Shown one piece after another: positions 23,583 to 53,571 of a stretch of 64,000 nucleotides of DNA. Below the pieces are notes generated by a model. It was not told the origin of the DNA. It did no database searches and was given only the letters and a program-made list of their open reading frames with translations. Every line of letters starts with the position of its first letter. Position 1 is the first letter of the stretch. The stretch comes from Chitinophagaceae bacterium (GTDB lineage: Bacteria; Bacteroidota; Bacteroidia; Chitinophagales; Chitinophagaceae), in contig CANFHA010000001.1 of NCBI GenBank assembly GCA_947446645.1, positions 124,001-188,000 on the forward strand, written 5' to 3'. The position numbers were made by a program, and so were the translations under genes.

Positions 23583-23630
23583 CATTTTCAAATTTGCGCA
23601 TGTTCATCCCGATAGCTATCGGGACAAATT
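23583..23630 (-). repeat. 48-bp palindromic repeat, copy 1 (inverted)
   Basis: Read on the minus strand, this matches 42259-42306 over 48 bases with about five differences. The core is the perfect palindrome TCCCGATAGCTATCGGGA at 23607-23624. It lies between the tail-anchored protein gene and the convergent oxygenase gene, ending at the oxygenase stop codon. Confidence 0.8.
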
Positions 23631-42260: not shown

Positions 42261-42306
42261 TTTGTCCCGATAGCTATCGGGATGAAAGTGTGCTAATTTG
42301 AAAATG
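42259..42306 (+). repeat. 48-bp palindromic repeat, copy 2
   Basis: It starts at the last bases of the groES stop codon and contains TCCCGATAGCTATCGGGA at 42265-42282. It matches the inverted copy at 23583-23630 over all 48 bases with about five differences; the shared flank GCtAATTTGAAAATG is seen again at 52259. Confidence 0.8.
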
Positions 42307-51574: not shown

Positions 51575-51647
51575 GCCACTTTAGCTCAGTTGGTAGAGCA
51601 ACTGATTTGTAATCAGTAGGTCGCTGGTTCGACTCCGGCAAGTGGCT
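51575..51647 (+). tRNA. tRNA-Thr (anticodon TGT)
   Basis: 73 nt. Acceptor GCCACTT/AAGTGGC, D arm GCTCAGTTGGTAGAGC, anticodon loop TTTGTAA, T arm GCTGG/CCGGC. The gene order tRNA-Thr, tRNA-Tyr, tRNA-Gly, tRNA-Thr, tuf equals that of thrU-tyrU-glyT-thrT-tufB in E. coli. Confidence 0.97.
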
Positions 51648-51661
51648 CACAGAAAATCAGG

Positions 51662-51690
51662 AACCGGGTTTTTCTTAAGTCCGGTTTTTT
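51662..51690 (+). terminator. weak hairpin with T run between tRNA-Thr and tRNA-Tyr
   Basis: ACCGG and CCGGT pair across 13-14 bases and a six-T run follows. It looks like an internal terminator or processing site; the boxA-like element just upstream could allow read-through. Confidence 0.45.
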
Positions 51691-51705
51691 GATCTTTATG
51701 TAGTA

Positions 51706-51788
51706 GGGTAGATGGCCGAGTGGCTAAAGGCGACAGACTGTAAATCTGTTCTCTCACGAGTACGGAGGTTCGAATCCTTCTCTGCCCA
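51706..51788 (+). tRNA. tRNA-Tyr (anticodon GTA)
   Basis: 83 nt with a long variable arm. Acceptor GGGTAGA/TCTGCCC, anticodon loop CTGTAAA, as expected for class II tRNA-Tyr. Confidence 0.97.
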
Positions 51789-51795
51789 CTTTTTT

Positions 51796-51846
51796 GCAGT
51801 TAGCAGTTTTCAGTCAGCAGTTTTAAAACTGCTGACTGCCAACTGC
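51796..51846 (+). repeat. long palindromic hairpin between tRNA-Tyr and tRNA-Gly
   Basis: CAGTCAGCAGTTTT and AAAACTGCTGACTG at 51811-51838 form a perfect 28-base palindrome, extended by GCAGTT/AACTGC outside. A T-rich tract precedes and follows. It may serve as a processing signal or attenuator. Confidence 0.7.
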
Positions 51847-51862
51847 CGACTTTTTTTTACAA

Positions 51863-51935
51863 GCGGGAGTAGCTCAGTTGGTAGAGCGACAGCCTTCCAA
51901 GCTGTAGGTCGCGGGTTCGAGCCTCGTCTCCCGCT
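51863..51935 (+). tRNA. tRNA-Gly (anticodon TCC)
   Basis: 73 nt. Acceptor GCGGGAG/CTCCCGC, D arm GCTCAGTTGGTAGAGC, anticodon loop CTTCCAA, T arm GCGGG/CTCGT with weak pairing near its base. Confidence 0.96.
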
Positions 51936-51955
51936 CTTAGTAATTAAGAGGTTTA

Positions 51956-51967: not shown

Positions 51968-51980
51968 GTAAATTTCAAAA

Positions 51981-52042
51981 GCTGTTGTAGCTCAGCGATA
52001 GAGCATCCCGATGGATATCGGGAACTTCGGTGGCCAGCAGCA
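51981..52042 (+). pseudogene. degenerate tRNA-Thr-like unit 1 (hairpin in place of anticodon arm)
   Basis: The first 25 bases equal tRNA-Thr(GGT) except one: acceptor strand GCTGTTG, TA, and D arm GCTCAGCGATAGAGC. In place of the anticodon arm is TCCCGAT-GGAT-ATCGGGA (52006-52023), a 7-bp stem. The T arm is missing. CAGCAGC at 52035-52041 can pair with all seven acceptor bases (one wobble), so a tRNA-like fold is still possible. Alternatively GAACTTC (52022) pairs with GAAGTTC (52048) to make a hairpin followed by TTT. It cannot decode. Confidence 0.75.
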
Positions 52043-52050
52043 GAAATGAA

Positions 52051-52063
52051 GTTCTTTATAACA
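52051..52063 (+). promoter_or_regulatory. boxA-like element 3
   Basis: GTTCTTTATAACA, between the two degenerate units, followed by ACGAGTAATTA shared with the next copy. Confidence 0.5.
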
Positions 52064-52073
52064 CGAGTAATTA

Positions 52074-52134
52074 GCTGTTGTAGCTCAGCGATAGAGCATC
52101 CCGATCGATATCGGGAACGTCGGTGGTTAGCCGC
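52074..52134 (+). pseudogene. degenerate tRNA-Thr-like unit 2
   Basis: It repeats unit 1 at a distance of 93 bases. The acceptor strand and D arm are the same, the hairpin is TCCCGAT-CGAT-ATCGGGA (52099-52116), and the tail differs by a few bases (GGTTAGCCGCAG instead of GGCCAGCAGCAG), which allows six of seven acceptor pairs. The unit is followed by boxA-like element 4 and then the intact tRNA-Thr 92 bases on. Confidence 0.75.
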
Positions 52135-52143
52135 AGAAATGAA

Positions 52144-52155
52144 GTTCTTTAAACA
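52144..52155 (+). promoter_or_regulatory. boxA-like element 4
   Basis: GTTCTTTAAACA, 10 bases ahead of the intact tRNA-Thr(GGT). Confidence 0.5.
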
Positions 52156-52165
52156 CGAGTAATTA

Positions 52166-52237
<72 letters not shown>

Positions 52238-52258
52238 CAGAATAATTGGAAAATTTGG

Positions 52259-52278
52259 CATGTGCAAATTTGAAAATT
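52259..52278. repeat. partial copy of the 48-bp repeat flank
   Basis: CATGTGCAAATTTGAAAAT matches the right-hand part of the repeat at 42259-42306 and 23583-23630, without the palindrome. Confidence 0.45.
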
Positions 52279-52383
52279 AGACGAGGATGAATGAAATGTG
52301 CAGGTAAATAGTAATCATCGCTGCAAAGCGTGAATAATAACAACAAAACAATAATTTAAACAGCTTTTTAAAAAAAGATAACA

Positions 52384-53571
52384 ATGGCAAAAGAAACCTT
52401 CAAGCGGGACAAACCCCACGTAAACATTGGCACCATAGGCCACGTTGACCATGGTAAGACCACTTTAACTGCAGCAATCACTACGATCCTGGCAAATAAA
52501 GGCCTGGCAGAGAAGAAAGGATATGATGAAATCGATGCAGCTCCAGAGGAAAAAGAGCGTGGTATCACAATCAATACAGCACACGTAGAATATGCAACTG
52601 CTAACCGTCACTATGCACACGTTGACTGTCCAGGTCACGCTGACTATGTGAAGAACATGATCACTGGTGCTGCGCAGATGGACGGCGCTATCCTGGTGGT
52701 TGCGGCTACAGATGGTCCTATGCCACAAACAAGAGAGCACATCCTGCTGGCTCGCCAGGTAGGTGTACCTCGTATGGTTATATTCATGAACAAGGTTGAC
52801 CTTGTTGATGACGCAGAAATCCTGGAACTCGTTGAAATGGAGATCCGCGAACTGCTTTCTAAGAACGGTTATGATGGTGATAACACACCAATCATACAGG
52901 GTTCTGCAACCGGCGCATTGGCAGGTGATGCTAAATGGGTTAAGGCTGTAGAAGACCTGATGCAGGCTGTAGATGATTATATTCCACTGCCTCCACGTCC
53001 GGTTGATATGCCATTCCTTATGTCTGTGGAAGACGTATTCACGATCACTGGTCGCGGTACAGTTGCTACAGGTCGTATCGAGCGCGGTGTTATCAAGGTT
53101 GGTGAAAACGTTGAGATCGTTGGTTTCAATGAAGCACCACTTAGCTCTACCTGCACAGGTGTGGAAATGTTCAAGAAACTTCTTGATCGTGGTGAGGCTG
53201 GTGACAACGCCGGTATCCTCCTCCGCGGTATTGAAAAGAAAGACATCCGCCGTGGTATGGTAATCTGCGCTCCTAAGAGCATCACTCCGCACACTGAATT
53301 CAAGGGTGAGGTTTATGTTCTGAGCAAAGAAGAAGGTGGTCGTCACACACCATTCTTCAACAAATACCGCCCACAGTTCTACTTCCGTACTACAGACGTA
53401 ACCGGTGAGTGCGAATTGCCAGCAGGTGTTGAAATGGTAATGCCAGGTGATAACGTTAACCTCCATGTAAAGTTGATCGCACCAATCGCGATGGACAAAG
53501 GCCTTAAGTTCGCTATCCGTGAAGGTGGTCGTACAGTAGGTGCAGGACAGGTTACCGAAATAATCAAGTAA
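52384..53571 (+). CDS. tuf: translation elongation factor Tu
   Basis: The 395-residue GTPase carries aminoacyl-tRNA to the ribosome. G1 is GHVDHGKT (about residues 19-26), followed by G2 in [14 protein letters not shown]3 DCPGHADY, G4 NKVDLV and G5 SAT. Length and domain order are complete. It is co-directional with the upstream tRNA genes and has a strong terminator after it. In most Bacteroidota tuf is followed directly by tRNA-Trp, secE and nusG; here an opposite-strand cassette lies in between. Confidence 0.98.

Follow-up and report, generated by a model that had tools for sequence, protein, structure and literature searches.

Hairpin-substituted partial tRNA copies at a tRNA-Thr(GGT) locus of a Chitinophagaceae bacterium and across Bacteroidota: a possible trace of tRNA-targeting GIY-YIG nucleases

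Among described systems, the closest to the locus reported here is SegB, which sections of PMC13096335 present as a free-standing GIY-YIG homing endonuclease of the T-even phages that cuts within tRNA genes and drives the segmental amplification of the tRNA-bearing stretch. The motif RAWTSGAAC is common to 23 of the 83 SegB sites mapped in that source, and the discussion there raises, as an open question, what keeps such a tRNA-cutting nuclease from ruining the genome in which it resides (PMC13096335). As we read it, RAWTSGAAC corresponds to the T loop of tRNAs in reverse complement. Two further features of the present locus have described likenesses, namely partial tRNA copies that annotation tools may mistake for tRNAs, in parts of a paper on prokaryotic tRNA gene fragments (PMC9897764), and short palindromes that occur in many copies in some genomes, in passages on REP and other palindromic DNA repeats (PMC3733652).

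Here, we report the analysis of two tandem units in a tRNA-tuf cluster of a Chitinophagaceae bacterium. The window, i.e. the whole stretch of DNA that was analysed, comprises 64,000 nucleotides. The cluster is ordered Thr(TGT)-Tyr-Gly-unit 1-unit 2-Thr(GGT)-tuf and its features, together with two dispersed palindromes of the window, are as follows:

23607..23624, unstranded: dispersed palindrome TCCCGATAGCTATCGGGA, arms the same as those of the units
42265..42282, unstranded: dispersed palindrome TCCCGATAGCTATCGGGA, arms the same as those of the units
51575..51936, + strand: tRNA-Thr(TGT), tRNA-Tyr and tRNA-Gly, upstream in the same cluster
51981..52005, + strand: unit 1, copy of tRNA-Thr(GGT) nt 1-25 (24/25 identical)
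52006..52023, + strand: unit 1, 7-bp hairpin TCCCGAT-GGAT-ATCGGGA replacing the anticodon arm
52024..52047, + strand: unit 1, post-hairpin segment, pairable with the acceptor 5' strand
52048..52072, + strand: unit 1, copy of the next unit's leader, starting with GAAGTTCTTT
52074..52098, + strand: unit 2, copy of tRNA-Thr(GGT) nt 1-25 (24/25 identical)
52099..52116, + strand: unit 2, 7-bp hairpin TCCCGAT-CGAT-ATCGGGA
52117..52140, + strand: unit 2, post-hairpin segment
52141..52165, + strand: unit 2, leader copy preceding the true tRNA
52166..52238, + strand: intact tRNA-Thr(GGT)
52384..53571, + strand: tuf (EF-Tu), downstream gene, named from its translation

A sequence-only reading of this DNA had described each unit as the first 25 bases of tRNA-Thr(GGT) followed by a 7-bp hairpin in place of the anticodon arm, lacking a T arm and repeating with a period of 92-93 bases, and all of this was confirmed. 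The units, at 51980-52072 and 52073-52164, measure 93 and 92 bp, are spaced by 93 and then 92 bases to the true tRNA-Thr(GGT), and share 94% identity over 79 nt. In each, the 25-nt tRNA part is followed by an 18-nt hairpin where the tRNA has its 17-nt anticodon arm, then by a segment of 24 nt and a leader copy; in both, the sole mismatch to tRNA-Thr(GGT) nt 1-25 is a G to A change in the D loop. The proposal that the tail can pair with the acceptor strand held for unit 1 (7 bp) and failed for unit 2, where the pairing is poor. The hairpin arms are indeed common to the palindromes at 23607 and 42265: the search for TCCCGATNNNNATCGGGA in the window, with up to 2 mismatches allowed, returned 4 matches, all exact, and shuffles expect 0.03. 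With the RF00005 tRNA model, unit 1 scored 25.1 bits, below the 29-bit gathering cut-off, and unit 2 gave no match at E up to 1; by this model the units are not tRNAs. A scan of the 31 tRNAs (30 loci) of the same genome recovered partial copies at Thr(GGT) only, and a Gln pair also flagged by the script consists of two true tRNAs.

A number of other elements were observed nearby and elsewhere in the genome. Between tRNA-Tyr and tRNA-Gly, at 51798-51851, two 27-nt arms that are 85% complementary form an inverted repeat without a spacer. The AT-rich stretch at 52243-52278, just 3' of tRNA-Thr(GGT), is a dispersed repeat with 5 other places in this genome and many in relatives, and the tuf leader (about 52310-52383), with its small GC hairpin and AACAATAATTTAAACAG, can be recognised before tuf in many of the relatives read. 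At four sites of the genome (L065, L066, L072 and L074), TCCCGAT..ATCGGGA appears by eye to be centred in a longer, recurring inverted repeat.

Three candidate interpretations were rejected. The alternative hairpin GAACTTC/GAAGTTC, which had been likened to an attenuator, occurs in both units, in unit 2 by way of a G-U pair, and is missing from the nine other 5' copies compared (11 copies in all); this stem is thus private to the units of this genome, no U-run terminator accompanies it and no terminator was called at 51981-52165. The leader copy of unit 1 starts with GAAGTTCTTT, which we take to be boxA-like; a boxA reading of the pattern AGTTCTT[TA] was weak, with 4/31 of the genome's own tRNAs against 29/1200 random stretches. 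A viral origin was dismissed, the hairpin pattern having 0 matches in viral_contigs.

The same locus was searched for in 60 relatives and the spacers of 30 loci were read. In some members of the genus, like copies precede or follow tRNA-Thr(GGT); most of the loci read have none. Of 35 genus genomes, 18 matched the pattern AGAGCATCCCGN(2-14)CGGGA, and its reversed control gave 1 match; most of the pattern loci that were read adjoin tRNA-Lys(TTT), tRNA-Val(TAC) or tRNA-Thr(GGT), with two (L036 and L046) having no tRNA. Among 195 genomes of the family, 8 matched a Thr-specific pattern with up to 3 mismatches allowed, the matches including arrays of two (L216) and of five units (L217, stem TCTCG/CGAGA). 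A larger set of 120 Thr loci was then reduced to 117 by leaving out 2 duplicates and 1 locus without a Thr gene. Using 22-mers of the tRNA ends, 19 copies were detected in at least 15 of the 117 loci, a lower bound because the 22-mer test missed copies visible by eye (L013, L023); a palindrome was present in 17/19 copies and was of the TCCC..GGGA type in 15/19. The 29 loci that came from the whole-locus search held 11 copies in 7 loci, a subset that favours copies because the query was the whole locus with the units included. The 88 loci found by the tRNA alone, 60 of which were hand-picked from the search list, are the fairer set; eight of them have one copy each, with a palindrome in 7 of these copies and the TCCC..GGGA type in 5. 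Random decay or absence in close relatives had been named beforehand as evidence against a meaningful arrangement: the units are absent from most relatives, and where present they are not randomly decayed, because the stem, the retained tRNA part and the position recur.

A scan of named genomes for the hairpin in a tRNA context returned at least 119 stretches, of which 110 among those listed belong to Bacteroidota and include Chitinophagales, Flavobacteriales, Bacteroidales, Sphingobacteriales, Cytophagales and other orders; Algoriphagus, Pedobacter and Flavipsychrobacter stenotrophus are among the taxa listed. Another tRNA lies on the same strand within 1.5 kb in 83 of these 110 stretches. 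Nine listed stretches fall outside the phylum: five are near a tRNA (2 Fidelibacterota, 1 Chlorobiota, 1 Myxococcota MAG and 1 other), and the four that have no nearby tRNA look like chance matches. A set of 167 hairpin-bearing sites, all selected by their hairpin, lies beside 16 tRNA species. Of the upstream copies, 64/84 begin with tRNA nt 1 and 71/84 end within -4 to +8 of G53; of the downstream copies, 50/83 stop precisely at the 3' end of the tRNA, 43/83 start at index 14-23 and 12/83 at nt 1. The geometry is therefore regular though not strict, running mostly from nt 1 to the T arm upstream and from the D arm to the 3' end downstream; the copies being mostly one-ended, most lack one acceptor strand. 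The tRNA of the same locus was the best or tied match for 69/77 upstream and 68/77 downstream copies that could be scored, hence the copies were either made locally or kept homogeneous. Compensatory changes in the stem, which the sequence-only reading had suggested looking for, do occur: pair 6 is paired in 164/167 sites and pair 7 in 147/162, where 107.7 and 106.3 respectively are expected from column composition, and covariation counts for these inner pairs only, because the scans fix, or nearly fix, the outer five pairs. Both units of the present locus are partial copies of an adjacent tRNA on the same strand with a GC-rich palindrome in place of the anticodon arm, and are thus two members of a class of hairpin-substituted partial tRNA copies that is found across Bacteroidota.

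Some copies elsewhere are more complete. ARAGORN labels near-complete tRNA copies with the substituted hairpin (L218, 1498-1570, and L043) as Ile(gat) or Lys(ttt), which may amount to misannotation in public genomes. In near full-length copies of tRNA-Arg(tct) (L147, L151, L156, L168 and L179), a palindrome some 20 nt long, either CCTGCCTGCCGGCAGGCAGG or a sequence close to it, sits in the anticodon loop in the manner of an intron.

In relatives, an 81-aa ORF lies 3' of tRNA-Lys and matches the GIY-YIG family PF01541 (2.3e-13). Against solved structures (E 0.01), the only matches of the small protein were two UPF0213 proteins; in NCBIfam, three of four such proteins matched group I intron endonucleases far below the cut-off and the fourth had no match. 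We fetched 80 regions, 79 of them hand-chosen among the matches listed with a preference for small ORFs, and the remaining one (G028:C44) because of its Lys copies. A custom model identified the small GIY-YIG ORF in 78; a tRNA lies at most 700 bp away in 37 of these, in every case on the same strand, and 41 have no nearby tRNA. A partial copy of the nearby tRNA was detected by script in 25 of the 37 tRNA-linked regions, and among the 12 missed, L154 and L166 have a copy visible by eye. The nuclease gene lies either behind the intact tRNA and ahead of a 3' copy, or behind a 5' copy and ahead of the intact tRNA. Among 31 copies chosen in these regions irrespective of any hairpin, 28 contain a palindrome with an arm of at least 6; this count is a weak test by itself because the background is high (129/620 random 80-mers and 17/42 tRNAs called in those loci), and it is the sequences rather than the counts that reveal a foreign palindrome. 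The Ala loci were left out of this test, the anticodon arm of tRNA-Ala being itself palindromic.

A tree of the tRNA-linked GIY-YIG proteins was built from 84 columns and 73 of 125 domains, leaving out 50 with no tRNA inside 350 bp and another two that bore the label Stop. The tree requires 15 isotype changes where the minimum is 10 and the shuffled mean 42.7, with 0/200 shuffles as low; Val, Arg, Pro, Ala and Asn do not form single groups. The GIY-YIG lineages on this tree of predicted proteins thus stay, for the most part, with a single tRNA isotype, even in different orders of the phylum. The Thr loci are set apart in this respect. No GIY-YIG gene was found in any of the 117 Thr(GGT) loci, the present one included, and in the set scored for own-locus matches the gene occurs in 0/21 Thr(GGT)/Thr(TGT) loci versus 18/28 Val(tac) loci (Fisher p 1.8e-6). 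Elsewhere in the same genome, at about 26830-27260 of contig C27 (about 2330-2760 of L138), a small Ala-type GIY-YIG gene is directly followed by a decayed 3' fragment of tRNA-Ala that bears the palindrome TCCCGAAAGCATTCGGA; tRNA-Ala was not found in the 5.1 kb fetched around this gene, which makes it an orphan element.

We consider that the copies may be segmental tRNA duplications thrown off by the cycle of a tRNA-targeting nuclease, with the Thr form lacking the nuclease and being kept as a self-folding RNA, and give this reading a probability of roughly 0.42. A SegB-like GIY-YIG nuclease would break tRNA genes and drive duplications; a segmental duplication running from the leader to the T arm would leave a 5'-only copy before an intact gene, a shape that is observed and a process that is presumed. 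Nuclease-triggered duplication is favoured by the SegB motif RAWTSGAAC, which, as we read it, complements the T loop, where the upstream copies end. The Thr arrays would then stem from a nuclease acting in trans or from an element that has lost its nuclease gene. With a strong hairpin for the anticodon arm and one acceptor strand lost, the product would be an RNA that folds on itself and is no working tRNA. Removal of the anticodon arm would be a plausible gain, because a partial tRNA with the arm intact could occupy synthetases or ribosomes. The array would ride harmlessly in the tRNA-tuf transcript, co-transcription being assumed from the layout, and such an origin would make a regulatory role of the units unnecessary.

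The weak point of a nuclease origin is Thr, as loci free of the nuclease demand that trans action, nuclease loss or another trigger be assumed, and the recurrence of TCCCG across different tRNAs and genera is outside what the nuclease model explains. The 41/78 GIY-YIG regions with no nearby tRNA, and the tRNA-linked ones in which the script detected no copy, also weigh against it. When the intact tRNAs of nuclease-bearing genomes were compared with this genome as the nuclease-free reference, the anticodon arm was the same for Lys, Asp, some Arg(tct) and Ala, and different for Pro(cgg), Pro(ggg), Asn and other Arg(tct); for Val, G029 differs by one compensated pair and G034 is the same. Immunity of the intact tRNAs through base changes is accordingly not general in this comparison with one nuclease-free genome, and self-cleavage would need to be tolerated. 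A bolder form of the nuclease reading, to which we assign rather less than an even chance, is that these are isotype-specific tRNA-gene homing elements of an undescribed family in Bacteroidota, each a minimal GIY-YIG nuclease with hairpin-substituted copies flanking a preserved intact tRNA; the TCCCG hairpin would be a working part, serving as a site that is either protected or recognised, while in the tuf cluster the Thr arrays would represent the nuclease-free, non-autonomous form.

The recurring hairpin could instead have come from a REP-like mobile palindrome that inserts into the stem-loops of spare tRNA copies, duplication and insertion perhaps arising in one template switch. Counting both units, TCCCGATN(2-12)ATCGGGA occurs at 19 sites of the genome and its reversed control at none, TCCCG..CGGGA is clearly in excess in 5 of 10 other genus genomes, other palindromes (CCTGCCTGCCGGCAGGCAGG and others) sit in the D, anticodon and T loops of copies, and several dispersed palindromes appear by eye to lie within longer inverted repeats. 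However, G007 and G013 carry the tRNA hairpins with TCCCG..CGGGA below the reversed control (15 vs 24 and 7 vs 16), and TCCCGATAGCTATCGGGA is absent from 16 of 35 genus genomes, several of which bear hairpin copies. A dispersed-repeat source thus appears weakened, and would be unneeded in G007 and G013, and we regard it as unlikely though worth weighing. The earlier proposal of decayed tRNA duplications hit by a repeat element stands to this extent: partial tRNA-Thr duplications with the arm replaced do lie in the tRNA-tuf cluster, and the derivation from a dispersed repeat loses ground with the two genomes that show no excess. Junctions resembling those of duplications, as in L216 and L220 where by eye the T-loop AGTTC runs into the leader AGTTCTTT, would suit plain neutral remains of tandem tRNA duplication, as would the 2/19 Thr copies that show no palindrome; against this, the other 17 have one, 15 of a single sequence type (7/8 and 5/8 in the tRNA-alone set), and the stem pairs covary. 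Neutral remains are disfavoured by this recurrence of the same hairpin and seem quite improbable. Attachment sites of integrative elements typically show partial tRNA copies and a core made of inverted repeats around a variable spacer, which would fit scars left by a tyrosine recombinase using the anticodon arm as its core, but upstream 5'-only copies and tandem arrays are an unusual outcome for such elements. No integrase-like ORF (at least 80 aa) was recognised by eye among the translations of 48-56 kb of the window, and we consider scars of this kind highly improbable.

The units could also be functional tRNA-like RNAs under selection, for instance helping the tuf transcript to be processed or to fold. 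Changes within genomes are more frequent in the post-hairpin segment (9/51) than in the tRNA 5' part, hairpin and leader taken together (3/140, p 4e-4). Among the units of this genome, G015 and G004, the tRNA part shows 0-1 differences in 26 and the stem is kept, pair 6 being A-T in some and C-G in others, while the post-hairpin segment differs at 7-11 of 25-27 positions between genomes. The G004 units fold into a mini-cloverleaf (z -3.3 and -3.1) whose pairs, by our own reading, are kept by the substitutions between units, and folding z values were -3.7 and -2.1 for units 1 and 2 of this genome, -2.0 for G015, and -1.3 and -1.5 for two L217 units. Over five homologous units, in an alignment whose tail gap position is uncertain, 96% of cells are paired, compared with 29-55% in slid versions; however, on five measures of the five-unit structure between 35 and 333 of 500 shuffles did as well, and the present units fold unlike those of G004. 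This pattern of constraint favours selection for folding, and an inert but well-behaved RNA explains it likewise. A dedicated role near tuf is further at odds with the presence of copies in only some Thr(GGT) loci (at least 15/117) and beside many tRNAs that do not precede tuf; the idea that the units regulate tuf gained no support from these loci, and a selected RNA function is, in our view, distinctly unlikely.

If the nuclease-linked origin is correct, a selfish or domesticated nuclease family would have reshaped tRNA loci throughout the phylum while leaving an essential gene working. It would be a chromosomal counterpart of the phage SegB, and would supply substrates for studying how a nuclease that cuts tRNA genes spares its host genome. 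For annotators, the copies are tRNA look-alikes, some of which ARAGORN calls Lys or Ile.

Among the papers listed by full-text searches of a literature that mostly excludes subscription journals, none dealt with the copies, their palindromes or the tRNA-linked GIY-YIG genes, and three palindrome strings were not found in print there. Where integrative elements have left attachment-site remnants at tRNA genes, partial tRNA copies adjoin an intact tRNA, as they do here. The present arrangement differs from such remnants in its upstream 5'-only copies, tandem arrays and exchanged anticodon arm, and in being linked to a nuclease and not an integrase. The passages searched of the tRNA gene fragment paper mention neither Bacteroidota, homing nor a hairpin, and palindromes figure in its reference list only (PMC9897764). 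Unlike REP repeats as outlined in parts of PMC3733652, the hairpin of the units replaces a defined tRNA arm, and does so also in genomes without a dispersed excess. SegB resembles the elements considered here in that a GIY-YIG gene stands beside tRNA genes, cutting by the Bacteroidota proteins being a prediction; it differs in belonging to a phage where the Bacteroidota elements are chromosomal, and the sections cited describe no hairpin-substituted tRNA copies (PMC13096335). SegB is presented in those sections as having no preference for particular isotypes (PMC13096335), whereas the predicted nuclease lineages of Bacteroidota largely keep to one.
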